From NCBI GenBank assembly GCA_029961685.1, contig JARWKL010000015.1:24583220-24647219 (forward strand): a DNA stretch of 64,000 bases. Direction: 5' to 3'. A model generated the notes under the pieces. It made no database searches. It saw nothing but the letters and a program-made list of their open reading frames with translations, and was not told where the DNA came from. A program made the translations under genes and the position numbers. The DNA is from Aristolochia californica. Taxonomy: Eukaryota; Streptophyta; Magnoliopsida; Piperales; Aristolochiaceae. This document shows positions 58 to 60,479 of the stretch, piece after piece; within the stretch, counting starts at the first letter, position 1, and each line of letters opens with the position of its first letter.

Positions 58-1588
58 TTGTATAGAGCAGCAAGGCGTATGAGCTCACTGTAGTGGATGG
101 AATAAAAGGGTACCTTTCTCCATTTATGACACACAGACGCAAATACATGGACTGGAGTATCCTTCAGCAGCTCATCAAGATTAGGCATCACAACAGCAAT
201 TTTGAAACTGGGAAAGCAGAAGGAGAACAAGTCAAGATCAAGAACCGATAATTAGTAATAAAAATTTCTAAAACAAGTGCTTGCAAATGGTTAGGTATCT
301 TAGAAGAGCATGTATTAGACATTCTTACAGTATGACAGGGAAGTCTTGATTAAAGATCATACCCGTCTTTCACAAAATCATTAAAAAAATCAAGCTCAAT
401 GGTTTCAGAAAACACCACAACACAAGCATCCGGATGGTTGTGGAGAACACTTTCGAGTCCTCTCTGATGTCTAACTCCAAACATCCATGGTGGACTATTC
501 CATACCATGAAAACTCGCATGAAACACTTTTTCCCTCTAAAAAAATCACCCATAAATGCTGAAAAAGACAAATGAGTATCCAATCCAGGGTAGTAACCCC
601 ATCTCCAGCCATCAGCATGAATCGGGTTTTTTGAATCCATATGGCTATAAACTTTAGAATTCAACTTCCTCAGCGTTTCTCTCCTTGAGTGCTTACTGGA
701 TGACACTCGTTCCAAGGGAGAGCCACCAAAAGGCACCTTGCGAATTTCCTTCCACATTGCTTTCTGCAGGATTCTATCACCCTTTGTTAGGCTAGTGACT
801 CCAGGCATATCAGGATCTTGCAACAAGGGGTTATTCAAAGGATTCAGCCTTTCGAAATTCGACCTGAACATCCGTTCCTTCCTCAGAAAAGCACCTTTTT
901 GATCAAACCAAGGAGCCCACCCATCCCTCAGAACAGATGCACCGCCCCTTGTTTTGAACAACAAAGCATCTTCTACCACCATCACTTCATTCAGTTTCTC
1001 CCTGATCTTCTCATCCAGAGACTGATCATCTGAAGCGAAACCACTCCTGCTCCGATCCTCCGAATCGGGATCAGAACTGAATCCGAACTGATCTTCCTCT
1101 GCACTTCTCTTATCAAATGCACGACGAGTAACTCCCGAGACATGGTCCCAGAAATACCCAGAATTTTTCTTTCCAGCATCCTCTCCTTCCTCCGCACTTT
1201 CATCTCTCCCGAATTCGTCATCGTCCCGCGCTTCTTCATCGGTCCTACCCTCCTCCAAGTTATCAAACTCATCAATAAGATCCTCCGTGTCGCTCACCGC
1301 AGGTTCGTCTTTTTCGTTTTCCTCATCAGCGAGGAGATCGAGGACGGCAACTTCATCGCGGCGGGATTCCACGGGCGAGATCAGATTTTTCCGGTGCTGA
1401 TGAGATTCTGATAAAGGAGGCGTCTGCATCACCAGCCCCAACCCTATCCCTAACCTGAACGACCCGAGACGACTATGGAGAACCGCAAGCGAGAGAAGCA
1501 GCAGCAGAGAGGCCAACACCGCACAAAGCTGGGCACTACCAATGCCAGGCCGGCGGCGATGCCCGCCGCCACGCAGAGTTTTCAGCAT
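58..1588 (-). CDS. alpha-1,4-glycosyltransferase family protein (At4g19900-like), 3' part outside window
   Basis: Two exons are visible: exon 1 at 1588..363 and exon 2 at 207..58; the gene continues beyond the left edge. The junction GG|gtatga ... cag|T restores a Gly codon and the frame, and exon 2 ends in a good donor (gtaagc, from 57). The first ATG is at 1588; the frame is open a few codons further up but only with a non-ATG codon. The N-terminus is basic, followed by a Leu-rich membrane segment (about residues 17-37), so it looks like a type II membrane protein. An Asp/Glu-rich stem follows (about 70-130), then the glycosyltransferase region with motifs RVFMVWNSPPWMFGVRHQRG, MPNLDELLKDTPVHVFAS and YSELIRLAALYK, typical of the Gly_transf_sug/Gb3-synthase family. 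The DXD motif should lie in the next, unseen exon. Family members are Golgi enzymes whose substrate in plants is not established; this is family knowledge, not visible here. Confidence 0.85.
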
Positions 1589-1893
1589 TGCCGGAGCAGA
1601 GCCCAACTGACAGACAACATAGCCAATGGAAACATCAAAGAAGCGTCACTCTTCTTTATTCTCGGACAACCCTGGGTCCTCCATTTTTCAAAATATCCCG
1701 AGGTTTTCTGCAATGTCACAGTTGCATAGAGATGCCTTCAAGATTTGATAAACTGACAATTCTGAGGCAAATTTTGCTGGCAAAGTTGGTGATTTCTCCA
1801 GCATTTTACCTACCATTAGGGAAGAACAGCCAGCAGGGACTCGACTTTAAACGGGTACCATTCTGTTGGTTGATGATTGATTTATACAGCTAA

Positions 1894-2061
1894 AAAGTTT
1901 CAGATTCTACTGCAGCAAAATGGGTCTTCACCGACAACACAGGGAAGAAGCAGCTTACCTTTAAGAGAAATCACCCATATGTGGTTGCAGTTCGAGGTAG
2001 TACCATTATCGATGGAGATTGTTCTGGTGTTAGTGAGAGTAAGACATTTGAAGTGTTTTAA
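1894..2061 (+). other. unrecognised coding-like fragment (possible terminal exon)
   Basis: An open frame of 55 codons ends in TAA at 2059-2061. Its composition is protein-like (motifs AKWVFTDNTGKK, FKRNHPYVVAVRGS, DGDCSGVSESK) and stands out from the AT-rich DNA after it. An acceptor-like cag sits at 1901-1903. No start codon or upstream exon could be matched, and I recognise no family. It could be the last exon of a decayed gene or chance. Confidence 0.2.
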
Positions 2062-4655
2062 ACGTATACTTTTCTTTATCATATTAATGGGTTAAAAGTT
2101 TAAATACTTTTTTCTTTTTCCACGTCATATTTTTAAGAAACTTGTATAAGTCGTATTTTTTAACAGAGTTCTTTTAATCTGAATAAATATAAATTGTCTT
2201 TTAATAATTTGAAATATAATAATATTATATAATAAATAAAACTAAAAAAAATGAATGGGGTATCTCCACTCAGGCCACTTTGACCGCAAAAAGAGATGGA
2301 AAGTGAGAGAGAGAGGGTTGATCCAATACGAAAAATCATTTGACGTGAAACATGCGAAATGCTGAGGCTTATACAGGAATGGAGGACTAGAAAGACAAAG
2401 AGTTGTTAATATTTGAAAGTAGAGCAAACTCATTAATTAATGTTTATGAACAATGGTCTCAAATCCATAGACATGTCCCTATAATTTAATTACCATTCAC
2501 ATTGTCTATGCATGTGAGGTTTCCAAGTATGCTTCTATCTTTTCGGTACTATTACCATGCATAATTTTGTAATATCTGAACAAGAAGTAGCATTGCTTGA
2601 ATCACATAATAATATTTGAAAAATAAAAACCAGAAAAATTTATCTTAGTTGACCAAAATTTGGCATGCTCGAAACTACCGAATAGAGCTTCCTCTCAGGT
2701 TTAGATGTCTCAAATGATGGTGTTGATTTCTAAGTTTGACCTGCTGTGGTAGAAATTATTCGACCTAGGTGGCTTTTGAAGATAGGGGTGAATTGAGATT
2801 CTAAATTATAAAATTTAAGTACATTGAATGCAAAAATAAAGTATGACACATAATAAACAAGCACATACCATAAAGAGAATGATTTTTTACTCTCGATGTT
2901 CTCCTGGTTGTAGTCATCGCCCAAAAATTATCGTGTAATCCCTAATTACGCTAATTGATATATCTCCAAAAGATTCAATACAAACTAGATTGCAACTCTA
3001 GTGGACACTTCATTTCTACATTCCAAGCTCTATAATGTCATTTTTCCTAGTTTTAAGGTATTAGATAACCTCTATAAAGAAAATGTAAAATAGAAAGGAA
3101 TAAAAACAAATTTATAATTTTCTTTTTAAAGAGATAACCCTTCTTCAGGTGAGATCTAAACCTCTAAATCTTTAGCACGAGAAGTGAAATGTATAGGGAA
3201 GAGAGATTAGAGGATGCGGGGAAGTTTAGAGTTTTTTTCTCTTCTATACAGGGTAAAATCACAAATTTTAAGCTCAAAAGATTTTTTCCAAAGGTTTGGT
3301 GTGCCAACATAGACTCAACTCTTAGTCCCCCATCAATTCGAGGGCCGATTTATAAGTTTTTCAACCAAACTAGTCGTTTTTGCCTGTTAACAAAAAACAA
3401 CAAAAAAAGTTTATCAGTCAACAAACATGTATAAAAGACTTTATTTTTTGTGTTCCCTAAACCTATTGATCAATCAGGGCATCAATCAACGAGTTTTTGA
3501 CTTTCTAGAAAACCTATTGATCGATCAAACCAATTCAATCGATCGATCATGTTTAATAGTACTAGCTAAGCAGAGTTTTGTATGATGATCATGCTTCATA
3601 GCATTTTCCTGGTAGCATTCTATATGATTGGTCATACTTGAGCCAATGATTGACCATGTTTTTATAAGTTATGCTAGAATGTATTTTGGATGATTGATTA
3701 AGTCCATGTAGGTTGATCCGATCAAACCCATGTAGGTTAACTAATCATGCCACATGATAGTGTACTATTTTAACATTTAAACATGAAGTAGGTTAATCTA
3801 AGAGATTTACCAATTGTAAAACATTCATATGCATTCGACTAAAAACATGGTTTTGAAATATTTCATACCTTGAAGCTCCATGATATAAATGGGCTTACGA
3901 ATTGAAGTTTGGTTAGTTATCTATTTACATAGCTAGGGTTCTTGAGATTTTATATTTGACTTCGACTTTAGTCTTCAAGTCTTCAAATTTCTTCTTTGTA
4001 TAAGTTATGCTTCACAACTACAATCTTCAATGAGTTTTTGCTTTGGGTCTTGACTTCCGCACCTTGATTGATAATTCTTTAATCTTAAACTTTTGTCATA
4101 GACTTCATTATAGTTGTGTTGGAAGGCTTAGTCTAAAATATACTGATAATGTCGTTAGTAACATATTTTCAAGTTACCCATTTTGTTATCATCAAAATAA
4201 TGGAGATCAACGTGATTGTACCATTCCTGGTTGGTAGGAAAATTGTCGGCCTCATTCCCCTCACTTATTATCGTTTTTATTATATCTCAAGTCTTATTAA
4301 AATAGTGAGTAGAATAATAAATTGAGTTTTATCATAAAAGGGCACATAAATTTATATTTTATTTTTTAAATATTAGACATATCTCTTTATTTATTTATTT
4401 TTCTATGTGCATCCATTCCAAAGTTCCAAATGTGGTTTTTTGACCTAGTGAACTAACCTAATGACTTAGTCGGATTAATATTATTTTTCAAGGGGGGCAA
4501 ATTGGGTGGGTCAAAACTTTTTAGATGGTTAAACTCATCTTTTGTATTTTGGGACTTACCACGAATCAAATTCTAGACTTAATCTGGCTCAACTCAGGTG
4601 ATGCTACTTGTCTTCACAGTTGAAACATTTTTTCTTTTCTCTCACTTAACATTTG
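2062..4655. other. AT-rich intergenic region, no gene seen
   Basis: Only short frames without family signal occur. Around 3455-3760 there are several near-palindromic copies of GATCGATCA and related words, which suggests an old element, but no terminal repeats could be defined. Otherwise nothing recognisable. Confidence 0.5.
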
Positions 4656-4697
4656 ATGGTTGGAGAGGTTGGCAACCGGGGAAACGGACGACCTGAG

Positions 4698-7600
4698 ATG
4701 GAGAACCAAGATACGGGGTTTGTGGAGGTAGAGAGAATAAGGGGGAAGTCGACTGTCACTCGCTGCTTTTCCAAGTACCCTCTCAAATTCATAGTACCCA
4801 CGAAGGTTCGTCGTTGCATAACTCCTGTAGAAAGCAAAGCAATTTCGTTTTGTATGATCTGTCTTCTAGAAATAGCTCTCTTGTATGATTCTTCTCAGGT
4901 CCTTCATCCTCTTGTTCCATTTCTGTAATCATCAAAGTTCGGCTTTTCATGTCTAATATTTGTAGGTTATTGAGACTGCCTCATGTTCCGTTTTTTTTTT
5001 TTGGCTTCAGGTGGGTCCGTCCAGCACAGATGCTGTATGGATTTACAGTATTTCTTATGGCGGGGGCATAGTTTCGGTATAACATGTGACATGTCTTCAT
5101 CTTCTTCTAGTCTCCTATGCCATCTGTGCAAATTTTTTCTACTTTATTTTTTATCTTGTCCTTCATTATTATGTTCCATTAATTTTATATAGGGAGATTG
5201 CATTTCATGTGGTATCAGTGTAGGAGAAGGTTGTACAGTGGTCTTGACCACTCAAGCTTCGACTAAGGTACGATCTTTAATTTATTCTTGACATTTTATT
5301 TGTTTAGTTGAGGTTTTCTTTTTGGCACCAAGCAGGAGTTTTAGATAGCAATTAAATCTTGTCTAACATGGGGAATCTCACATTTCACGATATTTGTCAC
5401 TAAAAGTCGAAGGATATTTGGATCCTAGGTGCTACCTCTACCTTGATGAGACATCCTGCTACTTCTGTCATTGAATAAAAGTTAGCTATCTAACTTTGGA
5501 ACGTACCTTGCACTCCATGATCTTTGGTTCAATTGGGGAAGTTGCTATCTCAAAGTATTGTGTTGGATTACTTAAATCTTCTCAACAACTGGAAGACATT
5601 TGAGAAGAAACAAAGAATAAGAAAAACAAAGCCAAACTTATGCCTATTTTGAAAAGTTTCCTGCTTTCTCAAACATGAATCTTTTTGGCCTATTGGAATT
5701 CAGTTTTCCTCTCAAGTGACAGGTGTTCTTATGGACGAACTATACATGGTAGCAGCTTGACGAGCTTCAATTTGTGTTCATGGATCATTGGATGAGTGAT
5801 AAATTGACTGCTATACCTTGTTGAAAATGACAAATGTGTGATATAAACTATAACTTGAAAAGAAGATATACCATCTACAATGTCAAAATTTGGTTCTTCT
5901 GATCAACCATTTTTCTGTAGATATCTGTATATCCAGCTTATTGAATGGAGAAAGAAGTACCTTAAATTCATTACTTTCTGTCTCATAAGTTTTTATAACT
6001 TTTTCACATTATTGTCTTTGAAACTATTTGTGAGGGCTGGAGACAAGGGAGGATGGTTCTCTTTTGTTCTAGCGTTTTTAAAATCTCATTCTATACTTAC
6101 TGTTAAGTAAATTCTTAAAGGAAAAATTTTAAGGTACAAATTTTTGACAATTATATTCCTTATATACATAAAGTTATATAAGACCTGAAGAAACCCTAGG
6201 TAAAGATAGCAGTGAGGGTTTGGTTTAAGCCGATTCTCCAAATGCTAGTTATGTCATTGCCTAATGTGAGAGTGAACTTTTCAAGGAGTCATAGTTAACG
6301 TGCAAATGGCAACTTGTAGCTTGGGAAAATCCGGGTCTACCCGGAGAGAGAGAGAGAGAGAGAGAGAGACATGGGTGGGTGGGTGGGTTGGTTGTTGTTC
6401 TTGGTAATATTCTTTTTGTCTTCTCTATTCCTTTTTGTCTGTGCGATGAACCGGTGACGGAGTTGACAGCCCTTCACTAGGTTATTCGACTCTTCACAAG
6501 CAGATTCTCATCTCCTCTTGCTCTAGAGGGTGACTAGGCAGTTGTCACTATTAGTTGGAGGCAAGGGCCACCAAGTTACTTATTGATGTATTTTGATAAC
6601 CTTGAAGATATATGTTAAAGCCTCAATATTTCATGTGTGCATACACCTAGGAGCGTTAATTGCTTAGCTAAAGCTTAGAGAGGGTTTGCATGGCAGCATC
6701 TCACTGTTGGCACCAATCTTCCCCTTTGACATTTGATTTCTTTTTGTTTTTATAGCTTTCTTATCATTCTATGTTGTGCTCACATATTTGTATTCTTCTC
6801 CCTCGGGAGCCTTGTTTCTAGTTAATCCTCTTTTTTTATTGTTATAAAGAAATAGTACATTGGAAGAAACTGTGTATACATAAGAAATTAAAAGCAGGCA
6901 TGGAATGACAAAATCATGAAAATATTCATGTGATACTGGCTCTTTTTTCACATTTTTGTCACAATTATTTGTCTTGAACCTGAACCTTTTATCAACAAAG
7001 ACCCAACTCTACAAGGCTTTTGGTGGCTGCTCATTTCACTTAATTTCTGTTTACCTTTTTGGTGGATTTTCAGGCTTGGGTACTAGTAAGCCTAACCCTA
7101 ATTTTTTCTACATGCTATGGAATATTTTCTTTGTTCAGATAAAAGATAATTAAGCAAGCAAAATGTTGGTGTTTCTAAGAATACCCTAAAAAGCTTGTTA
7201 TAAATGATGACTTCACTGTAATGCAGGTATACAAATCTGTGGGGTCAAAATGCTCTGAACAGTATGTGGAGGTACTATTTTTCCTGAAACCAATTAATAG
7301 CTCACAGATACTGACTAGTTTCCTTTCTGTATTCAACCTTGAAAACTCTTTAATCGACCCTTAATTGTTGAATTCTATTGGCTGCTTGGTAGCCATCAGA
7401 GGTGTATGAAAGAGCTTGTGTATATTACCATTTAATCATTTGGTCATTGTTGGATGTTTCAGCTTGTGTAATGTCAAAACTTTCAAGATTTAATCTGTTT
7501 TCCGTATACTGGTGTGTGTGTGTGTGTGTGTGTGTATTTGAAATTTATGTTGATATGTATTCAACATCCAAGGAAAAAAATCAATTTTCTTTATTGTTAT

Positions 7601-17754: not shown

Positions 17755-18005
17755 AGCAAAAAGTTGTGATCAGTGGCAGATTGCCCAAGCAGACTTTTCT
17801 AAGGCAATAAGAGTCGTCTATCAAAATATAAAACAAAAATAAATAGAAAAAAAAAAAAGAGCAATACACCACATATGGTTCACATACACAGAAGGCAAAG
17901 GTACACCAAATCTCTGCTTCTATGATACCTAGACCCCACATCTGGACCGTTAGGAAAGATTTTCAAGGCAAAGGTGGAAAATGCTTTCATTCACGTGACA
18001 AGCAA
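17755..18005 (+). repeat. direct segmental repeat, copy 1
   Basis: About 250 bp match the segment at 25015-25337 in the same orientation. Shared words include GATTGCCCAAG, AGTCGTCTATCAAAATATAA, ATGGTTCACATACACA, GTACACCAAATCTCTGCTTC and TTCATTCACGTGACAA. Copy 2 has an extra insert of about 70 bp. The nature of the parent sequence is unknown. Confidence 0.8.
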
Positions 18006-19205: not shown

Positions 19206-20135
19206 TTAACACATAATTTCATTTTGTACAGACTTTAATCAGTCGAATCATTCTATTTACAGATTAACAATCTAAGAGGCAAACAATTTACTCTTTTTTA
19301 TAATAGTATGTACAAATTTTATTGGCAGATTCAATAGTATGTACAAATTTTATTCTGTTACATACTCTAATCACGCGATTCATTCTATTTACAGATTAGC
19401 AATCTAGGAGGCAAGCAATTTACTATTTTTTTAATATTATGTACAATTTTTTTTTAATTATATGAACAACAGTTGAAACACGTTTTGCCCAAAAATGTAA
19501 AAGAAGGTAGGCTCTGATACCATGTAAAAACGGGAGCAATCTATTTCTAGAAATCTCGATTCAATTAAATAAGACAATGTATATTTATACATTTGTTTTT
19601 ATAAATCTCGGGACTATAATCACGCGTCTACAATTACGCTTAGATTTCTACAATCTCGCTAATTTTTTCTGTCACGCGATTTCATTATGTTACAGACTCT
19701 AATCACGTGATTCATTCTATTTACAGATTGACAATCTAAGAGACAAGTGATTAAATTTTTTTTCAATAGTATATACAAATTTTATTGACAGATTCAATAG
19801 TATATACAAATTTTATTTGATTACAAACTCTAAGCACGCGATTCATTCTATTTACAGATTAACAATCTAGGAGACAATCAATTTACTCTTTTTTTAATAG
19901 CATGTATAGTTTTTTTAATTATATGAACAACAGTTGTAACACATTTTGCCAAAAAATGTACAAGACAGTGGGCTCTGATACCATATAAAAATGGGAGAAA
20001 GGTATTTTTTAAAATTTTGATTCAATTGAATCAAACAATGTATATTTATATAATTGTTTCTACAAATCTCGGGATTGTAATCATGCATAGATTTCTACAC
20101 TCTCACTGATTTCTTCAATCACACGATTTATTCTA
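19206..20135 (-). repeat. 461-bp tandem duplication with tRNA-Met PBS motifs (LTR-retrotransposon remnant)
   Basis: Two diverged copies (about 19206-19670 and 19670-20135) share long blocks such as ATTCTATTTACAGATT, CAATAGTATRTACAAATTTT, AATTATATGAACAACAGTTG and ACAATGTATATTTATA. Each contains GCTCTGATACCA (19511-19522 and 19972-19983, 461 bp apart). This is the exact reverse complement of TGGTATCAGAGC, the primer-binding site used by many plant LTR retrotransposons primed by initiator tRNA-Met. Each copy also has an internal duplication of the ATTCTATTTACAGATT block. The likely origin is the LTR-PBS-leader region of a minus-oriented element multiplied by unequal exchange; no coding part is left. 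Confidence 0.65.
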
Positions 20136-20198
20136 TTATGGAATGACTAGCAATAGGTGAAGAACAACAAATTATCTGAGAGACACATAAGAGAATCT

Positions 20199-20530
20199 TG
20201 TTATGCACACAATAACATTAATTTACTTTATTTTATTTCAGTTAAAGAATTAATAGGCTACATGGGCATTTTTGGAATATTTTATTTATAAGGGTATTTT
20301 TGTAATATTTTATCTTAAACCTTGTAAGGGTGAACCCTATTTAAGAGGTAAGAGTAATGAGAAAGAGAAACATTGATTTAGCATAAAGAAGGTTTTGAAT
20401 TCTCCTCAATTAGCTCAGGGGTGTGCATTTTCCTCAGAGAACCTAGGTTTTCAAGCCTCCCTTTGGCTTAATTTTCGTCTTTCTCTCCTTCCTCCCTACG
20501 AATCCATGTGTCAGATCCGAGACCATAACA
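20199..20530 (+). repeat. 5' LTR
   Basis: 332 bp, TGTTATGCAC...GACCATAACA. It includes an internal promoter-like block (ACCCTATTTAAGAGG) followed by a purine-rich leader, and matches the 3' LTR over nearly its whole length. Confidence 0.9.
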
Positions 20531-20532
20531 AC

Positions 20533-20544
20533 TGGTATCAAAGC
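20533..20544 (+). other. primer-binding site of the LTR element
   Basis: TGGTATCAAAGC follows the LTR end after two bases. It is the initiator tRNA-Met complement with one mismatch (A for G at position 9). Confidence 0.8.
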
Positions 20545-20562
20545 GGGAACACAATGAGCGAT

Positions 20563-20799
20563 TCTATGTCCCAAGAAAAATGGATTGTCATGCACAATCA
20601 ATTGGAAGAAATACGCGCATGGTGTTTAGCATTTGACGTTGTATGGCGTGCAACTTCCATTAAAATTTCTGCAAGGGAGAAACTCTATGCCACAAAAAAG
20701 GTCATACGACCTAAATTGTCCGAGCACAAAAAATTCACAGAAGGAAAGACAGTAGATGCTGTCTCCGACGGGAAGATAGGCCACGGGCCAGAAAAATGA
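20563..20799 (+). pseudogene. leader/gag-like frame of the LTR element
   Basis: The open frame downstream of the PBS has methionines including MSDSMSQEKWIVMHNQLEEI and is rich in charged residues, as retroelement gag N-termini often are. It ends at a stop before any capsid or zinc-knuckle motif. Assignment to gag rests on position only. Confidence 0.3.
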
Positions 20800-21624
20800 A
20801 AAATTTCTCGAGCAGGGAAATCCTCATCTTGCTGTTCACCATCTGAAGTCGCTGTGGACGATTTGGGTGCGACCTCAAATCCAAAATCGGGAACCATGAA
20901 AATCTCCGAGAAGGACCCAGAAAATCCGAAATCAATCTACTCCTGCTCACGGCAAACAAAACTCCTTCCCGAACAAGAGAAAGAAATATTTTTGGCGACT
21001 CTTCCGACCAGGATATGTTTCCAAGAGCCCTCTGTCTCGGATAATCTCCAAACGGTGAAGCCCCAAAGGACTGTTGTTCGCCACCAAAAAAAGTGGAGGC
21101 TCCGTCAGCTCCGTCGGACAAAATTTCAGTGGGCGTTGGCTTCCAAACTCTCACTCTCACTCTCAATCTACCTCTCAGCAGAACAACAGAAACCCAATTT
21201 CCACTACTGTTGGGGTAAGTCTCTGCGACCTATTAATTTGATTCAATCCTTTGGGAAGATAGGAAAAATAATTGTAAGGGTGCATTTTCATTCAATCCTT
21301 CGAAAATTTTCATGTTGTTATTGTTCCCCATCGGAAAACAGTAATGTTGTCTTCGCCAGAGGAAAATACTTCAAAAACAGTAGGGTTGGAAGGGATGAGA
21401 TTGAAGAGTTTATTTTTTTGGATGAAATGTATGTGTAAAGAGTCTGAGGTGCATTTGTCCCAAGGAACCCTTAGGGAACGAAAGGGGGAGCCATAGGATC
21501 CATATGACGATCTATTTGAACTTGGTAATGAAAAACACTGTAACCAAACGACAACAAATCCCCTCCAAGAAAATTTCACCAAAGACTCTGAACTACATGT
21601 AGCTGCCTCACCGACTCTATCGCC

Positions 21625-22064
21625 TCAAGATGCTGACGAGAATTTCAGGAAAATGAAAGAAATGGGGTTCATCCCCAATGTCATTGCAGTGCTAGATGGC
21701 CTATGCAAGGACAATTTGATTCAAGAAGCTATGAAGCTATTTGGGTTAATGCGTAAAAAGGGTACAATCCCTGAAATTGTAATCTATACGGATGTGGTAG
21801 AAGGCTTCTGCAAGGCACTAAAGTTTGAAGATGAAAAATAAGTTTGAAGATGAAAAATGGGTTTTCAGGAAAATGCAAAACAATGGTATATCTCCCAATG
21901 CTTTCAGCTTTACAGTGTTTGTTCATAGATTATGTAAAAGGAAGCAACTGGAAGATAAGATTGGGTTTTGCATTGAGATGTTGGTGGCTGGGCATTCACC
22001 AATTGTTGCTACTTGTATTGGGTTGGTTGATAAGAGATCAGAAGAAGCTCAATGTGTTATTTAG
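21625..22064 (+). pseudogene. captured PPR-repeat fragment
   Basis: Translations read as pentatricopeptide helices: KMKEMGFIPNVIAVLDGLCK, EAMKLFGLMRKKGTIPEIVI, YTDVVEGFCKA, then FRKMQNNGISPNAFSFTVFV and HRLCKRKQLEDKIGFCIEML. The frame is broken at about 21839 by TAA, where a stretch of about 20 bp (GTTTGAAGATGAAAAAT) is duplicated in tandem; the downstream part resumes in a different frame. PPR proteins are normally organellar RNA-binding proteins; this piece covers only about four repeats and cannot act as one. Confidence 0.7.
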
Positions 22065-22689
22065 AGGTTGAGAGAAATGGCAAAGGGTAGGGGCTCAAGT
22101 AGATAAATTGGTTGGATTATGAGTTTGGACTTTAGTTGTTGTTGTTGTGGCAATAGAAAAATGGACTCAAAAGAAAAAAATAAAACCGATTAGAAGTGAT
22201 GAAGATGAGCAACACCTAGAATATGTAGAAAATGAAAATGAATCACAGGGTGCATCTATAGCTCATGAGAATCAAGGACATGTAGCAGTGATTATTGTTG
22301 TTCAGATCTATGAACACAAATTGGTCAACAGAACACTAATAGGTCCATCTTTAGGCCAGTACCATAGCAGTGTTTATTGGAAGAATGAAAGTTCCACCTA
22401 TTGTTCCAGCTCACTCCAATGCATTGCTGGATTGTAAGACATTGTTTTGACACTGCAGAACACAGTGTTGCCAACAGTGCCACTGCTGAACACAGTGCTG
22501 ATAATTCTGCAAGTAGTAGCAGCAGTGACTTATGACGCACAATTATCTGTTGTTGTGGGCACAACATATAGTCCTTTGCAGGATGTAGCTAATTTTAGCT
22601 GAACAGGGACAACAACAAAAATAATTTATGTTCTTACTGCATGTACCAGTAGTGGAGCTCTTGAGCCCAAGATGATGTTGATATTTATT

Positions 22690-22962
22690 ATTGCTGCTGT
22701 TATTGCAGTGAAGATAAGGGCACCCCAGCAAAAACTACAAACTGCAAAATATAATGCACCTGAGCACCACCTGGGAAATTCTGACTTTGACCAAATGAGA
22801 CAAGACTTGAATGTGCTTGTGCATGGGGGGAACATTGATGCTGCTCATGGTGTATTCAATGGATTACCAGTCTTTGATCTCATCTCAATTGAAATCATAT
22901 GTGGCAGAGTTATCTTTGGTAAAGATTGTCTTAATACCATTGATTTTGAGAAGTTCTCGTAG
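22690..22962 (+). pseudogene. second PPR-like fragment
   Basis: The frame contains VLVHGGNIDAAHGVFNGLPV followed by FDLISIEIICG, resembling a PLS-class PPR unit (NMYxKCGNIDxARxVFDxMP, RDxxSWxxMI). It ends at a stop. The match is to one repeat only, so the assignment is tentative. Confidence 0.4.
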
Positions 22963-23086
22963 CCATATTTTGAATGTTATGCTGTGGGGAATGATTTTTA
23001 TGACTGTTGACGGGAAAACTATTAAATTCTGGGCGGCTTCTGAATAGAGTATAAATGATGTTGATGTTTTGACACTGCAGAACACA

Positions 23087-24142
23087 ATGCTGCCAACAGT
23101 GCCACTGCTGAATCCAGTGATGCTAGCCATCCAAGCAAACAATGTTGTTGTGACAGTCCAGAAGACATTGTTACTAGACAGCCAAGGACACAGTGCTGCT
23201 GTCGCAGTGCAACACACATTGCTGCTAGACAACCAAGGACACAATGTTGTTGTGACAGTGCAACAAAAATTGTTGCTAGACAGCCAACAACCAGTGCTAA
23301 AAACAGTGGCCATGCAGAATGAAAACGGTGCACTTAATTTTGGAAATCTTGACAACTGTTTGGCAGTAATTGAGAACCATTCAGATTTCCATGATCGTGT
23401 TGTTGTTGACGTTGGTGCTGGTAGTGGTATTCTTTCATTATTTGGGAGGATACACTTGGCTCCCTTCAATGATGAATTTTTGTATATTGAAATTGCAAAC
23501 AAGACCCTCTTTTGGCAACAACATAATTACTATGGGGTTGATCTTACACCTTTACATGGACCTGCATTTCAAAGATATTTTTCTCAGCCTGTAATAGATG
23601 CTTTTGATCCAAAGATTGTCGAGGAGATGACAAAGATCTTCTCTGGTTTACAAGGAGGAATCCTTCAAGGTGGACGCCTGGGTGCTCCTTATGTTGCTAG
23701 ACAAAAGAAGGTTGTTGCCTGTGAGAAGCACTTTCTTGGTGATGGCGGCAACCAGAAAGGGATCAATAAGTACCTCACCATAATCAACTTCCATTCACTG
23801 CTGAGTATTCACATACCTGCTTACTATGAGGCTTACTATGATGTCTGGCAAGGAGTTGATAGAATCACGTACCCACCTCACACCAACTACTCGTCCTCTA
23901 TGGCTGTTGCAATTCAAGCTGGAATCGACATGGTAATGGTGGGGTATAACTTCATTGGATTCATTGATGACCTAACCAATCTTGTGAGCAGCAAAGTCAT
24001 TCCCATGAGCAGAATTGACAATGCAGTAACCAGGATCTTGCGTATCAAATTCATGACTGACAACAACTTGATCAATCAAATTGGAAACCACGAACACAAA
24101 GAGCTGGCTAGAGAAGCAATTAGAGTATCATTGTGCTTCTGA
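23087..24142 (+). CDS. chimeric ORF: 17-aa repeats + PRMT4-like + GH3 glucosidase-like
   Basis: One uninterrupted frame (first ATG 23087, about 351 aa) joins three unrelated parts. First, three 17-residue repeats at 23141-23293. Second, a PRMT4/CARM1-like segment with the SAM-binding motif VVVDVGAGSGILSLF, then directly GRIHLAPFNDEFLY, LFWQQHNYYGVDLTPL and YFSQPVIDAFDP; the protein between SAM motif I and GRIH is missing (join near 23444). Third, from about 23611, a plant GH3 beta-glucosidase segment: GLQGGILQGGR, VVACEKHFLGDGG, LLSIHIPAYYE, AIQAGIDMVM and IDNAVTRILRIKFM. GH3 homology continues past the stop with in-frame stops ([11 protein letters not shown] near 24290). The GH3 part lacks the block with the catalytic Asp (SDW motif), so no hydrolase activity is expected. 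It lies inside the LTR element. Whether it is expressed is unknown. Confidence 0.8.
   Translation: MLPTVPLLNPVMLAIQANNVVVTVQKTLLLDSQGHSAAVAVQHTLLLDNQGHNVVVTVQQKLLLDSQQPVLKTVAMQNENGALNFGNLDNCLAVIENHSDFHDRVVVDVGAGSGILSLFGRIHLAPFNDEFLYIEIANKTLFWQQHNYYGVDLTPLHGPAFQRYFSQPVIDAFDPKIVEEMTKIFSGLQGGILQGGRLGAPYVARQKKVVACEKHFLGDGGNQKGINKYLTIINFHSLLSIHIPAYYEAYYDVWQGVDRITYPPHTNYSSSMAVAIQAGIDMVMVGYNFIGFIDDLTNLVSSKVIPMSRIDNAVTRILRIKFMTDNNLINQIGNHEHKELAREAIRVSLCF
23141..23293 (+). repeat. three tandem 51-bp units in the chimeric ORF
   Basis: Units start at 23141, 23192 and 23243. Each encodes 17 residues of the pattern NVVVTVQxxLLLDSQGH. A related unit of about 60 bp is also shared between 22441-22502 and 23064-23122 (ACACTGCAGAACACARTG...CCAACAGTGCCACTGCTGAA). 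Confidence 0.9.
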
Positions 24143-24605
24143 AAATTGGAAAAGACTCTAGTCAACCATAGCTTCCCCTCCCCAAGAAGGCAAAGAGAAT
24201 TCTCATAGCATGAAGCCATGCCCATGACCTGGGTTCCCAATGCGATGGTTGGACCATCCCAAGGCAAGGTCTCGAAGGAAACAACCTCACCGAAGGAACA
24301 ACAATCTTGAAAGTTGTTCCTGCTAATATCAAAGCAGAAGTTGCCAGTTTGGAGCAGGTGATAGTTCAACTTGTTGTTTGGTTGTTTATCCGTATTGAGC
24401 TATGCTACAGCAAGTGATACTAGCAGTGTTGATAAAAATAAATAAATAAAATTTGTTTCTCAGGTGAAATTCTCCAATTTTTTCGTCTAGAGGGCTGACA
24501 CATATACCACGGATGCGACTTGGAAATAGGTGGAAACGTCAGCATGGGCAAGTAAACCCTACCTTCGAGCTTGAGGACAAGCTCTTTCTCCCAAGAGAGG
24601 TGTAA

Positions 24606-24960
24606 TGTTATGCATGCAATAATATTATTAAATTAATTATTTTTATTTAATTTACTTTATTTTATTTCAGTTAAAGAATTAATTGGTCATAGGGGCATTT
24701 TTGGAATATTTTATTTATAGGGGTATTTTTGTAATATTTTATTTTAAACCTTGTAAGGGTGAACCCTATTTAAGGGTAAGAGTAGTGAGAAAGAGAAGCA
24801 TTGATTTAGCATAAAGAAGGGTTTTGAGTTGTCCTCAATGAACTCAAGGGTGAGCGTTCTCCTCAAAGAACCTAAGGTTTTCAAGCTTCCCTTTGGCTTT
24901 ATTTTTGTCTTTCTCTCCTTCCTCCCTACAAATTCATATGCCAGATCCGGGACCATAACA
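24606..24960 (+). repeat. 3' LTR
   Basis: 355 bp, TGTTATGCATGCAA...GACCATAACA. It is colinear with the 5' LTR except for about 27 extra A/T-rich bases near its start and scattered substitutions. Confidence 0.9.
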
Positions 24961-25014
24961 AATGTCCAAACTCTTTCTACAATAATCCAATAGACATTCT
25001 GATGTAAACCCCTA

Positions 25015-25337
25015 GCTAAAAGCTATGATCAATAGCGGATTGCCCAAGGAGGCTTTTCTTTCTTTCTTTGTTTTGAGATTTACAGAGACCAAGATATGTT
25101 TGTTCTGTACTTGTCTAAGCATTTTTCCAAGGCAATCAAGAGTCGTCTATCAAAATATAAAACTAAATTAAATAGAACATATGGTTCACATACACATAAG
25201 ATTGAATATCCAGAAACATAGGTACACCAAATCTCTGCTTCTAAGATACCTAGACCCCCCCCATATACGGACCGTTACGAAAGCTTTTCAATGCAAAGGT
25301 GGAAAAGGGGTCTCATATTTTCATTCACGTGACAAAC
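25015..25337 (+). repeat. direct segmental repeat, copy 2
   Basis: Same orientation as 17755-18005 and about 7.26 kb downstream of it. It begins about 55 bp past the 3' LTR and is interrupted by about 70 bp not found in copy 1. Confidence 0.8.
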
Positions 25338-26993
25338 AGATAAGGAGGAAAAGAGGTCTCATATTTACAGTAAGAAAAAATAGACATAGAAAGAGTTGAT
25401 AGCATAGGGTCGTGGATTGTTTGGGGTTTAGGGTTCGATTGAGAAGGAGAGAAGTAATGGTTTTGCTGGAGCCTGCGATGGCCCTTTCATCTGTAAGTAT
25501 CGTTTCCTCCTCTTTGCTTTTGGAGGAGATATAAAAGACCTAGATTGACCACCCTTTTGGAGATAACAGTTGAGTAGACCGAGTTCACTTTTGGTTTTTT
25601 CTTTACTACTGTACCACAATTTACATTCTCATGTTGTATTTCCTTACTCAAAAATGAGTAACTCAAGTTTAAAATACATGCTTTAGAAAGCTATGGGAAT
25701 GTTCTTCCTTGCAATCCCTTCCTAGTTTTATTCTTTTTGTTAACTTGTGATTCTCTATTAGAGAACCTCCATCTTCCAGCAAAGGAGCTGAAGCTGTTTT
25801 TCTAGCCTGGAAAGCAGGCATTATGCATACGGATATCCCATATTACTACCTAATATTCTAGTCTTCCCATTACCCACTTTAGAAAAAAAAAAAGAGCAGT
25901 TCAGGAAGAATGAAACCGGCATATCCAAATTCCAAATTCCAAATTCTCTCTTCTGTTCCTGCTCCTTTGACTCAACCCGTTAGGATTAAATGCGCAGTTC
26001 AACGTGGCCAACTGACTTAAATTTCCTGCAGGAAATTTTAACATATTACCCAATTTTTTTTAACATAATAACACTAATAACCTAACTTTTTAACTTATTT
26101 ACGTAAATACCTAACTTTGACCGATAAAATGTACAGTCATAATTGACACATAAACTTATGCCATAGTGGCACTTGAAGAGTCTTATGCCAAGTCAATTGA
26201 TACGTCATAGGTGTGCCATATCATTCTCCCTACAGGATGACACATCACCTTGCACGTCCTTAAATGCCACATAAGCCATCCACTTCAGTTTACCTTTTTT
26301 TCTTCTTTTTTTATGATTGATTTAGGGTATTTTGTGATTAAGTTTTTTTTAAATATTAATTTCTGGTTTTAAAAATTCTTGCACATTTCATTTCATTACT
26401 TTACTTTAATATAATAAAAAATATAAAATTTGATTTTAATTATTTCAAAATATTTTTTAATATAATTAATACTTTATTTTAAGTAATATCTTAATGTAAT
26501 TATGTTACTTTAAGATATTATTTAATTTAATACAATATTTAGTAAAAAATAATTTAGTTTTAACATTCTTATTTTTAGGTACAAATATTCTACCTTTTTT
26601 TTATAATAACAAAACATAAATTTCGTATTAATTAATTAAAAATATTAAAAATTATTTTAGAGTGTAAAATTTTAATTTATTAGTACAAGTTTTATTACCT
26701 TATATATAATAATATTCTCGTTTTTAAATTTATTTTAATCCTAAAAATATTTTTCTAAAATATTTAAAAATTTTAGAAAATATTTAAAAATATTATTAAA
26801 TTAATTAATTAAGTATTTTTAATTTTATTTTTAAATATTTATTCGATGATGTATCAGGATGACGTGGTGTACTAATGACGTGTCACTTTACGTGGCATAT
26901 TTGTGCACAGAAGTTAAATTAGTGAATTTTCCCCAATTGTCTTGTCAACACCACAGGTTTACAATTACGTCTCGTAACGCATTCAATTTGCTC
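25338..26993. other. intergenic region, extremely AT-rich from 26.0 to 26.85 kb
   Basis: No supported gene. A short plus-strand frame at about 25458 (MVLLEPAMALSS followed by gtaagt) could be an orphan first exon, but no partner exon was found. The 26040-26850 stretch is almost pure A/T words. Confidence 0.5.
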
Positions 26994-34876: not shown

Positions 34877-44068
<9,192 letters not shown>

Positions 44069-48800: not shown

Positions 48801-50056
48801 CTTTCAGTGATTGTAACAAGATCGTGGGGAGCTGTATAAGTACCTGATCGTTTTTAAGTTGCAGTTATGGCGGATTAATTAAAACCGTAATCAGCCAATC
48901 CTTTCGTTTTAGTTGCTGATTTTGCCTTGGTTGGAGAGGACCTTTTTGGTCGTGGAGATTGGAAGGTGTTGGTTGAAGGTATGGACGGAGTTCGAGATTT
49001 TTCTTGTTTTTTCTCGATGGTTTTTCTTTGAATTTTGAGCTGATTTTTAGTCGTTTGAGGATGTAGATCTGGTGGGAAACTTTTTGATGGTTTGGATGTC
49101 GGAAAGGTAGCGCTTTTATGTGTATAGAATGCTTTTTGTCTTGGTTTATACTTATTTTCTTTTGGGGTTTGAGTGGTTGTGGTAAATGTTTTTCCTACAA
49201 AATTTGGCCCTTGTGCCCAACGCTGTGATGTCGTCAAAGTGATTTTAGGATTTATGATTGTTTCTCCACGTCCACAGGCGTCCTTCTCAGCTTTACTTTT
49301 TCTATAGATACTCGGAGACGAATCAATGTTAGTAAGCCCCAACATCGGAAGTTTTCTGGATTTTAGTTGAGTATTTTGGGATAACCTGAGCTGAAATTCC
49401 AGACCTTTTTTTTTTTTTTTTTGACGATTTTACTGATTGAAGATGAAATATGAAGAGTCAACAGACGTTGGCACCTTAAAATTGCATTTAGAAAAGATGA
49501 TATGAAGCTTCCCATGCTCTTATCTTTGCCTTTTAGTAGAACACAATAACATAATTGGACATTTATCTATTATGCTGTTGCTTGAGGTGATACTGATGTT
49601 TGACCTTATAACTGCGAGTGCTGCTTTGCATCTATTGAGCTGTCTAAGATGTTCCATGTTTGCTTCTAGTGCCATTTGAATTTTTTTGTTCTGTGAAGTC
49701 GAAAATGATTGATTTTGGTGCTTTTCATTGGGCCACGGTTGGTTAGTTTCTGTTGTTTTGTGAACGTTATGCAATACATGGAAGATGACCTGTTTATGAA
49801 ACATATTGTTGTGGCTTCTTTCCCCTTTTTTAAAAAATTTTCTGGAGCTTAACTTTACTTTGGTTTTGCAATTCATTCCCCCTCTAAACAAAGCTATTTC
49901 TGCAGAGAGCTTGATAAGCACGAGAAAGAGAGAAAACACATATTTGGTTAAAAAGTATAAAAAGTTGATTGAAAAGCATTGGGTTTGAATGCTGATTTTA
50001 TATGATCCTTATGGGATTGACACTCGGGGGGTTTATCCCCACTGAAAAGGTGACAA
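45801..50056. other. intergenic/promoter region between divergent CHR4 and MAP3K genes
   Basis: Apart from the 280-bp tandem repeat I see no gene. The T-rich stretch 48.9-50.0 kb is likely the MAP3K 5' UTR and leader intron; an acceptor-like TTTCTGCAG ends at about 49905. A T20-like run lies at about 49406-49424. Confidence 0.45.
46690..47400. repeat. tandem repeat of about 280 bp, two good copies plus a degraded third
   Basis: GGGAATGTATGGTTT occurs at 46798 and 47079, and AATCACAGGT at 46951 and 47230, giving a period of 279-281 bp. Other shared blocks are CCAGACTGT..., GCCATCTGAATTGC/CACCATCTCCATCGC, CTCAAATGGG and TCATCTTGTYATATCC. A shortened third copy runs to about 47400. It lies between the divergent CHR4 and MAP3K genes. 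Confidence 0.75.
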
Positions 50057-53000
50057 ATGGAAAAGAGGCCATCAGAAAGGTTGGTGAATCAGATAAAAAA
50101 AAATGAACAGTTTCAGTCTGTCACCATGGGAACTAGAAGGGAAGGGGCTGCGCCAACAGGTCAGAGGATTCCACAGGACCCACCTAGTTCCTTCAATACC
50201 AGTGATAGACCTCCTGACTTCCATGCAACAAGTGGAGTTAAACCTGTACTTTTTTCTATTCAAACTGGTGAAGAGTTTGCGCTGGAATTCATGCGAGAGC
50301 GTGCAAATTCACGCATACCTGTAGCATCAAATCCATCGAGTGATCGAGGTAGTGGTCATGCATATACAGATTTGAGAATGCTTGGTGTCACTCACATGGG
50401 ATCGGAAAGTGGGTCTGATATATCAACAATTACAGCACTTGAGAAAGGACCAGTGAAGGAGATAGAAAAGAAGAGTGGGATAGAAACAGAGAGTAGAAGC
50501 TATTATGGGTCTGCACGATCTGTGCCACGCTCTTTGTCAGGTGATGGAAGTAGCCGTGGTGCTACTTACGGATACATGTCTTCTGGGGCTTCAGATAGTT
50601 CATCAACAAAGATGAAAGTTCTTTGCAGCTTTGGTGGCAAAATGTTACCCCGCCCAAGTGATGGAAAGCTTAGGTATGTAGGGGGCGATACACGAATTAT
50701 TCGGATCAAAAGAGACATTTCATGGCAGGAACTTGTCCACAAAACTTCATCTATCTTCAGCCAAACCCATGTTATCAAATACCAGCTACCCGGTGAGGAC
50801 CTTGATTCTTTGGTTTCTGTATCTTGTGATGAGGATCTGCAGAACATGATGGAGGAATGTAATGATTCTACTGGGGGTTCACAAAAACTAAGGATGTTCT
50901 TGTTTTCCACGAGTGATTTGGATGGTCCCCATTTTGGTCTAGGTAGCATGGATGGTGATTCGGAAGTACAATACATGGTTGCAGTTAATGGAATGGACAT
51001 GGGATCAAGAAAAAACTCAGCAGGAAATGTTGTAGCAAGCACATCAGAGAATGATTTGGATCAATTAATTAGCCTAAATTTTGGTGGCGACAGGGGAAAC
51101 AAACCAGACATGGGCTCAACAGCTGTGACTGGTGCTACGGCCCCTTTGACTGATGTGCCTATGCCTCCACCATCTAGGAACCCATCTGCAGTCCCAATGC
51201 AAGTAAATGAATATGAATCCCATGCAGAAACTTGCCAAGTTGAGGTGACAAACAACAGGCAGACTGAGAACTTCCCATTCTCAGCTGCCCAATCCCAGTA
51301 TGAGTACAGTTCATCCCATTATGCCCCTTCAGGGGAAAACGTGGTTCCAGTGCCATTGCATGAGCTGCTATCAGTTCAACAACCTGATGGACGTAATCAT
51401 CTAAAAAATGAACTTGAGCACGTTTGGTCTCTGGAAAATGCTTTCTGTTCTAATCAGAACCACACTCCCACAGAAGTGGTTCCAGGTGGAATCAATTTAT
51501 CATCTTCACAGCGCAATGAAAAGCACCAAGATTTGGACGATGTTGTTAGTGCCAGCCAAGTTCAGGAGCCTACTGATGATGACCACTACTACAAGTCCGG
51601 AGGGGCTTTAGGCACTACATATGCAAACTCTGAGGCGGACCAATCAGAATGCAGCTCCTACGATCCACCTCTTCCCCCTCCTCGGGTCTTTCGCTCTGAA
51701 AGGATTCCAAGGCAGCAGTCTGAGTCAATGAATCGGTTGTCAAAATCTGATGATTCTCTAATATCTCAATTTTTGGCGCCACATTTACGCCCTGCTCCTG
51801 TGTCAGAAGAGCCTGCGACAGAATCAATTGATCCTTCAGTTGAAGGATCTGTGCCAGCAAAACCGCATGCAGATACTGCAACAGTAGGTGATGAGTTGAT
51901 GAAATATGAAGAGTACAAGGAGTTGACTGAAGCAATTACTCAAATAGGTCATTGCGAGCTCGAGGAAGATTTGGAATCTGGCAAATATTCTCCTCGTCAT
52001 CAAGTAGTGAAGAATTCTAATTATAATGAAGATGTATCAGGAGCTGCAGCGCAAAACCAGGAGGATTCTGCTTCTAGTCTGCCAGAACGGCATTGGGGAG
52101 AGATGGCTACAAACGGCAACAATGTTGTGGGGGTGGGTCCAACATTTACATGGGCAGGGGGTTCTGCCGCCGGAGTTCCTCAGGAGGGATCTTCTGCTCA
52201 GGAGCAAGGGGACATTCTAATTGATATTAATGATCGGTTCCCTCCTGATTTACTCAATGGTTTGTTCTCTAAGGCCATCCTTACTGAAGATGCTGGAATG
52301 GGGCCCCTGCTCCATGATGAAGCAGGGTTAAGCTTGAACATGCCAAACCATGAGCCCCAGCGTTGGTCTTTCTTTCGGAACTTGGCACAAGAGTTCAATA
52401 GGAAAGATGTTTCACTTATGGACCAGGATCACATTGGATTCTCTCCTCCTATCACAAATGTTGAAAATGTTGGCCCTAGATCCTACGGCATCTCACCTTT
52501 GAAGAGTGCGGGAACTATTTTGGGTCATGATATCTCTCAACTTGATTTTGATGAGCGAATTCAGAATGATTCTGCTACTCATATTGGATCTGATGCTGCC
52601 AGTTCACATCCGGGTTACTTTGCATCTCATGCGCTTCCTCAGGATTTTGAGAAGGGCATTGAAGATGTACAGACAGACGATATTTCTTTCTCTAAAATAG
52701 CAGCAGAATTACAAACTACGGATTCTGAGTATGAGGTATTTTTTCTTCTGGTTAATTTTTAATCAATACAAAGAGTGTGAGCTCTCTTTTGTTTTATTTT
52801 ATTCTTTTTATCGAAATAGTTTTCATTTGATCTACTTTCACAAACATCACTGGTATAATGTAATAAATTTGATATTCAGGAAGGGAAGTTGCATGCTCGC
52901 CATACTGGTGGTCCTGTCATTGAGTCTCCGGTGGGAGAATTTGGTATCAATGACTTGCAGGTAATATTCTTGTTGCCTTTGGGATACCTAAAGCAGCATA

Positions 53001-58839: not shown

Positions 58840-60393
58840 TCAATTAGATACAGCATTGTGTACTTGCCATGCAGACGCCACCATTATGGGCCTTCCTTTC
58901 CATCCAAGAACCAGACACCCCTTCTCGGTAGCTAAACTGTACCCATCACAGCCATACACAGACAACAACAATCTCGCCTGGCTCATGGACTTGAGGTTCA
59001 CTGCCTGGAATCCTGCTCGACCCATTTGTCTTCTCCATTGATCGGCTCTTTCGTGTCTCTCCACTCTCTCCGATCCTTCGTAAGCGATGATGTTGCCAAT
59101 CTCTTCACCGAAGTGGGTCTTCTCTAATTTGTTCCTGACAGGGCTTGGCCGAGGAAGACAAGCTTCCAGCGAGTCGAAAATAGCGGAATAGTAGTGCAGG
59201 GATTCCAAGAATCTGCCGAGGAAGAAGGGTCCATTGTGATTCGCATCTTGTTCGACGACAGTGAAGAGGGTTGGACCCAGTTTCCGGATCGCTTGGAGGA
59301 TGGCTTTGAGGGAGCCTCTGCTCTCTTTAACGTATTTGTGTAAATGCATGATGCTGTTCACAAACAAAGATTCTCCTTCTTTCAAGCCGAGGGTGTCGGG
59401 GTTCAGCAGGGAGGGAGTCATGTGTTGTGGAATCGTTTGAAATTCCAGCATCATGCCGAGGAAGTTAGCTTCTTTGGCGAGTGATTTCATGCTTGCCTGT
59501 AGCTCGTCGACGACGTCGGGAGCCGTGCCAACTCCGGTGATCCGTAGCTTCGGTGGTCTTCCTGGGCATGAAGCCAGGTTTCTGATGAGGGACGACCATT
59601 GGAGTTCATGCTCCATGCCTAGATCAATGATGTGTAGCGAGTCATGCCCTTGAGCTGCTTGATAAATTGCCTCATTGGCAGCCAGGTAGCCGAAGGCAAT
59701 GTATGGAGTGGTTTGGTGGAGGAGGTGGAAAGCTTCCACCCTCTCTTCTCTGGTGATCACTGCTGCATCTACTGCTACATTTGCTAAGGAGCCATTAGGA
59801 CCGACATTATGCAGGAGACACAACCTGGACCTTAATCCCATGGCAAAGCAATGGGAGACTCTCTGCAAGGGGTCTCCCCATGGATTCGTTGAAGCCCAGA
59901 TTTGATTAAGCAAGGAACTAGCAAGCTGAGTGTCCCTGCACCCAACAGCTTCCGCGCAGGCCAGCAACAAGTGCACCAGATGAAGCCCCGCATGAACCAC
60001 CTCATGTGTGATCCCCTCCTTGGTGAGCTCCTGCTCTGGAGTCACTCCCAGCTCTTCTACCAGGCCTCTCATCTCCACTTCATCAGCCTCGTTCATTGGA
60101 ACTTCGTTGTAGACATTACTTACTGGCATCGAGAAAGACTCCAATTCATCAGGAGATTGATGGGTCATGGCAGATTTGCTATCACATTCCCCGAGAGTGT
60201 CCATGTTGATGAAGCTGTGAACGAAATCGTCTTGCTCTATGGGAGCTAAGCCAGGAGATGACCCATCAAAATCCATCGTCGACCATGAATCTAAGTCGTC
60301 AAGGATGTCATTGATGTCAATCTGTTGATCTTCCTGATTCAGACTAGCCGGCCCAAACCTTCGGATTGCCGGATTCGAAAGCCAGCCAGTCAT
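58840..60393 (-). CDS. GRAS-family transcriptional regulator (RAD1/RGL1-like)
   Basis: Single-exon frame of 517 aa from ATG 60393. The N-terminal 130 residues are acidic (DINDILDDLDSW) and lack the DELLA and TVHYNP motifs. The GRAS domain is complete: LHR I from about 138 (LVHLLLACAEAVGCRD), VHIID-type motif LHIIDLGMEHELQW (253-266), LRITGVG, the PFYRE-like region around FVNSIMHLHKYVKESRG and VVEQDANHNGPFFLGRFLE, RVERHERADQW, and the SAW motif GWKGRPIMVASAWQVH at the C-terminus. These phrases fit the clade annotated as RGL1-like or RAD1, which in legumes acts with RAM1 and NSP2 in arbuscule development; the exact clade is my inference. GRAS proteins are nuclear co-regulators. A TATATA lies 87 bp upstream. 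Intronless genes are normal in this family. Confidence 0.9.
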   Translation of the reverse strand: MTGWLSNPAIRRFGPASLNQEDQQIDINDILDDLDSWSTMDFDGSSPGLAPIEQDDFVHSFINMDTLGECDSKSAMTHQSPDELESFSMPVSNVYNEVPMNEADEVEMRGLVEELGVTPEQELTKEGITHEVVHAGLHLVHLLLACAEAVGCRDTQLASSLLNQIWASTNPWGDPLQRVSHCFAMGLRSRLCLLHNVGPNGSLANVAVDAAVITREERVEAFHLLHQTTPYIAFGYLAANEAIYQAAQGHDSLHIIDLGMEHELQWSSLIRNLASCPGRPPKLRITGVGTAPDVVDELQASMKSLAKEANFLGMMLEFQTIPQHMTPSLLNPDTLGLKEGESLFVNSIMHLHKYVKESRGSLKAILQAIRKLGPTLFTVVEQDANHNGPFFLGRFLESLHYYSAIFDSLEACLPRPSPVRNKLEKTHFGEEIGNIIAYEGSERVERHERADQWRRQMGRAGFQAVNLKSMSQARLLLSVYGCDGYSLATEKGCLVLGWKGRPIMVASAWQVHNAVSN

Positions 60394-60479
60394 GGTTTCT
60401 CTCTGAACCTCTTAGCTCCAGTCTGCCCTTTCCCACAGTGACAATGGTGAGGTTGCCTCTACTGGGTTACCATCTGGCC

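Follow-up and report, generated by a model that had tools for sequence, protein, structure and literature searches.

That LTR elements of plants can capture genes is already known, both from single elements such as maize Bs1 and from surveys. In the excerpts considered of PMC13317346, Bs1 is described as carrying, between its LTRs, segments transduced from three host genes, with no full-length frames. The element described here lies in the window, i.e. the whole stretch of 64,000 nucleotides of Aristolochia californica DNA that was analysed; it resembles the Bs1 of these excerpts in that it also encloses fragments of three host genes with no full-length frames, but differs in belonging to a family with many copies, fragments from about six host gene families, of which two are tentative, and varying module orders. 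A survey of genes inside full-length LTR elements is alike in having PPR among its domains, and the passages considered of that survey hold no family with shuffled multi-gene fragments. In pepper, according to excerpts of PMC5664825, retroduplicated NLR genes are intron-reduced, lie inside LTR elements (≈ 72% non-autonomous) and are amplified in copy number. The likeness to the present case is the presence of intron-reduced host genes within LTR elements; on the other hand, the pepper excerpts concern mostly one gene family per element under purifying selection, whereas several genes, as decayed fragments, are found here. For Veju and BARE-2, chimeric cDNA has been attributed to abnormal template switching between two packaged RNAs (PMC13317346, in the same excerpts), which joined unknown sequence or another retroelement, in contrast to the several host mRNAs proposed here. 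A literature search found no description of this A. californica family. Taken singly, the element looks Bs1-like, and the many-copy, many-gene, shuffled family appears to be a novel variation on that kind.

Structure, copies and age of the element

The LTR element occupies positions 20199-24960 of the window, with a 5' LTR of 332 bases, a 3' LTR of 355 bases, and the termini TGTTATG...CATAACA. Its features are compiled below in window coordinates.

20194..20198, no strand: left target-site copy AATCT, 4/5 match to 24961-24965
20199..20530, plus strand: 5' LTR, lacking ≈ 20 U3 bases present in the 3' LTR
20533..20544, plus strand: primer binding site TGGTATCAAAGC
20554..20796, plus strand: leader reading frame, gag-start-like by eye
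20701..21433, plus strand: 5' family-core region
21435..22075, plus strand: PPR fragment, At4g38150-like
22136..23126, plus strand: second family-core module, no host gene assigned
23121..23298, plus strand: 51-base tandem repeat, 3.5 copies
23363..23444, plus strand: PRMT4/CARM1 piece 1
23444..23612, plus strand: PRMT4/CARM1 piece 2, past the internal gap
23606..23833, plus strand: GH3 piece 1, donor coding bases 571-798
23845..24313, plus strand: GH3 piece 2, donor coding bases 930-1423
24593..24600, plus strand: purine tract AAGAGAGG
24606..24960, plus strand: 3' LTR
24961..24965, no strand: right target-site copy AATGT

The LTR structure is directly observed. The LTR pair, primer binding site, purine tract and near-perfect target duplication described in the initial annotation were all located, the duplication agreeing in four of five bases (the chance of 4/5 or 5/5 being ≈ 1.6%); its statement that no pol genes lie inside also held, with no pol domain in any of 18 segments (10 plus-strand segments in Pfam and 8 of the longer minus-strand ones). 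The evidence supports a non-autonomous LTR retrotransposon that holds host-gene fragments. The primer binding site, which we take to be of the tRNA-iMet type, reads TGGTATCAGAGC in copy L028. Among the six copies examined, window included, the target duplication is perfect (5/5) in L024 (TGACT) and L028 (CTCTG), and a clear one is absent from L027, L031 and L034. The window LTR pair aligns with an identity of 0.909-0.912 and 25 gap columns, and the LTR distance of 0.095 translates into 3.6 million years at 1.3e-8 substitutions per site per year, a rate used in the excerpted PMC5664825 that may not be that of this plant.

The surroundings of the element hold repeats of their own. A cluster of direct repeats at 19211-20138, whose copies measure 65 to 177 bases and are 64-89% similar, stops shortly before the 5' end of the element, and 25123-25338 in the right flank is 78% identical to 17795-18004 on the left side, so that both flanks lie within repeated DNA. 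Farther to the right, long open frames at 34877-41836, 50054-52762 and 58840-60411 look by eye like a CHD-type remodeller, a PB1-domain kinase and a GRAS protein.

Copies were sought in the same genome, an assembly of 659,574,684 bases in 521 contigs in which the window occupies 24583220-24647219 of contig C57, and proved to be dispersed, with at least 41 matches to the element (best 40 of 3281 candidates). Sister copies are thus observed directly: in L024, everything from element base 20 onwards is present in colinear order (87%), with LTRs of its own that are 96% identical to each other, and L036 covers most of the interior (element bases 1376-4762, 88%), with one LTR located, the 3'. Near-full LTRs flank L024, L028, L031 and L034 on both sides. 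The leader (20530-20800) is matched at at least 40 places (best 40 of 1094 candidates, window included), its reading frame having no Pfam match; the 5' core region is matched in 40/40 scored (best 40 of 996, window included), as is the second core module (best 40 of 646, window included), for which many of these best matches begin at 22136 or stop at 23126. A retained 5' intron near 21213-21333 (GTAAGT) was considered and dropped because this stretch is family-core sequence, and a PPR-like reading of 22603-22959 was set aside, both Pfam and PDB giving no support.

Captured fragments and their joins

At least three unrelated host gene families had been proposed to lie inside the element, and pieces of all three (PPR, PRMT4/CARM1 and GH3) were identified, and host genes were located for each. 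The abbreviation GH3 is used for glycoside hydrolase family 3 (of the barley ExoI type) and should not be confused with the auxin family of that name.

The PPR fragment is recognized by Pfam as PPR_2 (E 6.7e-11). An intact PPR gene at C46:279754-280386 has a stop-to-stop frame of 423 residues in a single exon, and an RNA step is therefore not readable for this module. The element fragment is 79% identical to this gene and 84% to L032 on contig C24, a decayed duplicate of the PPR gene that has no LTRs and was copied at the DNA level with flanking sequence (84.6% over 1574 bases). The PPR query gave at least 43 matches, the window and host-type genes among them (best 40 of 104 candidates), and 20 PPR-match loci were fetched for copy comparison. 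In 16 of these 20 the PPR piece ends no more than three bases from base 1651 of the donor; the ends differ at L033, L039 and L041, and L032 is the duplicate gene. A second PPR suspected by eye in L028 received no Pfam support.

The PRMT4/CARM1 fragment was identified by a PDB match (E 1.3e-22). There are two multi-exon host loci, C111:42674809-42690861 and C221:13158995-13168699; donor exons were read from the former (L047-L049), which served for the base-by-base comparison. The element crosses three PRMT4 splice junctions with no intron, namely the exon end GGGAG, the exon start GCCCTC, and TCTCAG/CCTG (the slash marking the junction); the first of these rests on five bases, and the comparison covers the exons on either side of the short one between GGGAG and GCCCTC. 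The GH3 fragment (PDB match E 1.7e-41) was compared base by base with one host gene, that at C35:531609-534215; this gene has nine exons and eight introns and shows 0 mismatches to the A. californica protein P0001 in a spliced alignment. The GH3 introns at coding bases 668, 1017, 1200 and 1405 are all cleanly absent from the element, the last junction being crossed by 18 bases. Because four GH3 introns and the introns at three PRMT4 junctions are missing, a direct observation in each case, derivation of the GH3 and PRMT4 pieces from spliced RNA is supported. The earlier suggestion of capture through RNA is accordingly upheld for these two genes, with seven donor splice junctions crossed intronless, and the PPR piece is uninformative.

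Fragment edges do not coincide with donor exon junctions, the coincidence that the initial annotation had raised: the GH3 edges lie at coding bases 571, 798/930 and 1423, the 5' edge of the PRMT4 fragment lies 13 bases inside a donor exon, and none of the three readable joins (PRMT4-GH3, PRMT4 gap, GH3 gap) is at an exon junction. Short identities are observed directly at two joins. The PRMT4-GH3 join lies inside GATCCAA, seven bases common to both donors, and at the PRMT4 gap TTATTTG abuts GGAGG, with TTG shared; the GH3 gap join reads TACTATGATGCT, a second TACTATGATG, then CTGGCAAGG, with one base shared (all raw counts). Exon skipping was rejected as the source of either gap, because the PRMT4 gap opens 8 bases before one exon end and resumes ≈ 5 before another, and the GH3 gap spans from exon interior to exon interior (798 to 930, with the intron at 912). 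Ungapped PRMT4 also occurs, for example in P0124.

The order of the modules varies between copies. PRMT4 pieces are present in 8 and GH3 in 2 of the 20 fetched loci, and in six of the eight with PRMT4 (L025, L026, L027, L031, L040 and L043) the PPR piece leads through a repeat tail directly to PRMT4; core-module sequence follows 3' of PRMT4 in three of these six. Just 3' of PRMT4 the same six loci also show a coding-like stretch (...VGASDFDGRIREMRQEEAAVFA...), which may be another captured gene. The alternative orders are a matter of direct observation, with PRMT4 preceding GH3 at at least six places and the reverse order at at least three, mostly by contig coordinates. The GH3 query gave at least 94 matches (best 70 of 150 candidates). 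In L006 and L046 the GH3 sequence extends back to its start and has the internal gap seen in the window, and a weak match at C221:40646256 (residues 179-293, 49%, five stops) spans the gap position. Since the gap (≈ residue 267 to 310) is common to at least 11 places with both sides listed, window included, yet ends and orders vary, each module was most simply captured once and later re-cut and re-ordered.

Proposed template switching and its alternatives

The reading that we consider likely is that a non-autonomous, many-copy LTR family took up host RNA by template switching and then re-shuffled its modules. Element RNA and spliced host mRNAs would have been co-packaged and copied together, with the reverse transcriptase supplied in trans by a presumed partner. 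Where templates shared short identical stretches, the enzyme would switch from one to the other, and the resulting chimeric cDNA would integrate between LTRs. As the element multiplied, captured modules would have multiplied with it, and they may have been re-cut and re-ordered when the enzyme jumped again, now from one element RNA to another.

A well less probable course of events is assembly at the DNA level, in which PRMT4 and GH3 processed pseudogenes came to lie within an old LTR element or next to it, were reordered by deletion and ectopic recombination, and were carried passively. The internal gaps, with few or zero shared bases, also fit deletions, and L032 demonstrates an LTR-less duplication of the PPR gene; however, the PRMT4-GH3 join lies in its shared bases inside both transcripts rather than at pseudogene ends, and GH3 and PRMT4 are both intronless and found in both orders. 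That the two LTRs stem from different insertions with unrelated pseudogenes between them is highly improbable: the imperfect target match of the window and the raw identities, by which the two window LTRs each have a closer match in an LTR of L024 (0.928 and 0.915) than in one another (0.909), point that way, but L024 has the same interior, colinear between its own closely similar LTRs and within a perfect target duplication, which also opposes separate pseudogenes, and a tree of 23 LTRs joins the window pair as sisters (support 0.877). Of the two LTR comparisons that bear on this possibility, which the initial annotation had itself raised, sisterhood thus counts weakly against it and raw identity is of no help.

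Annotated proteins and implications

The family may also have left traces among the annotated proteins of A. californica. In one of these, P0002, GH3 precedes PRMT4. P0121 and P0122 share the core module; the former has a carbamoyltransferase domain at 28.1 bits, just below the Pfam cut-off of 29.4, and the latter a thiolase match (E 4.8e-18). L034 gave a weak match to UPF0004 (25 bits versus a Pfam cut-off of 27), and this stretch had no PDB match. Together with PPR, PRMT4 and GH3, the family and its related sequences would thus draw on about six host gene families, the carbamoyltransferase and UPF0004 being tentative members of this set. P0002, P0121, P0122 and P0124 are annotated genes that look like family pieces fused to host-gene fragments.

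In the window copy the captured reading frames are broken. Over 228 bases, the dN/dS values are 0.096/0.083 between window and donor, 0.077/0.130 between window and L024, and 0.089/0.156 between L024 and donor. At the sequence level there appears to be no sign that the window copy makes a useful protein, 228 bases being too few to exclude weak constraint. It is conceivable, if rather doubtful, that the family as a whole could be a continuing exon-shuffling machine, drawing on about six host families in template-switched orders, and that its annotated products (P0002, P0121, P0122 and P0124) may be expressed.

For the annotation of A. californica a warning follows, as several annotated proteins, a thiolase-like and a carbamoyltransferase-like one among them, share core sequence and may be transposon pieces. 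Furthermore, host genes, processed pieces and rearranged descendants are present in one assembly, which makes it feasible to read the joins, to place them in a time order and to test whether they arose by template switching.
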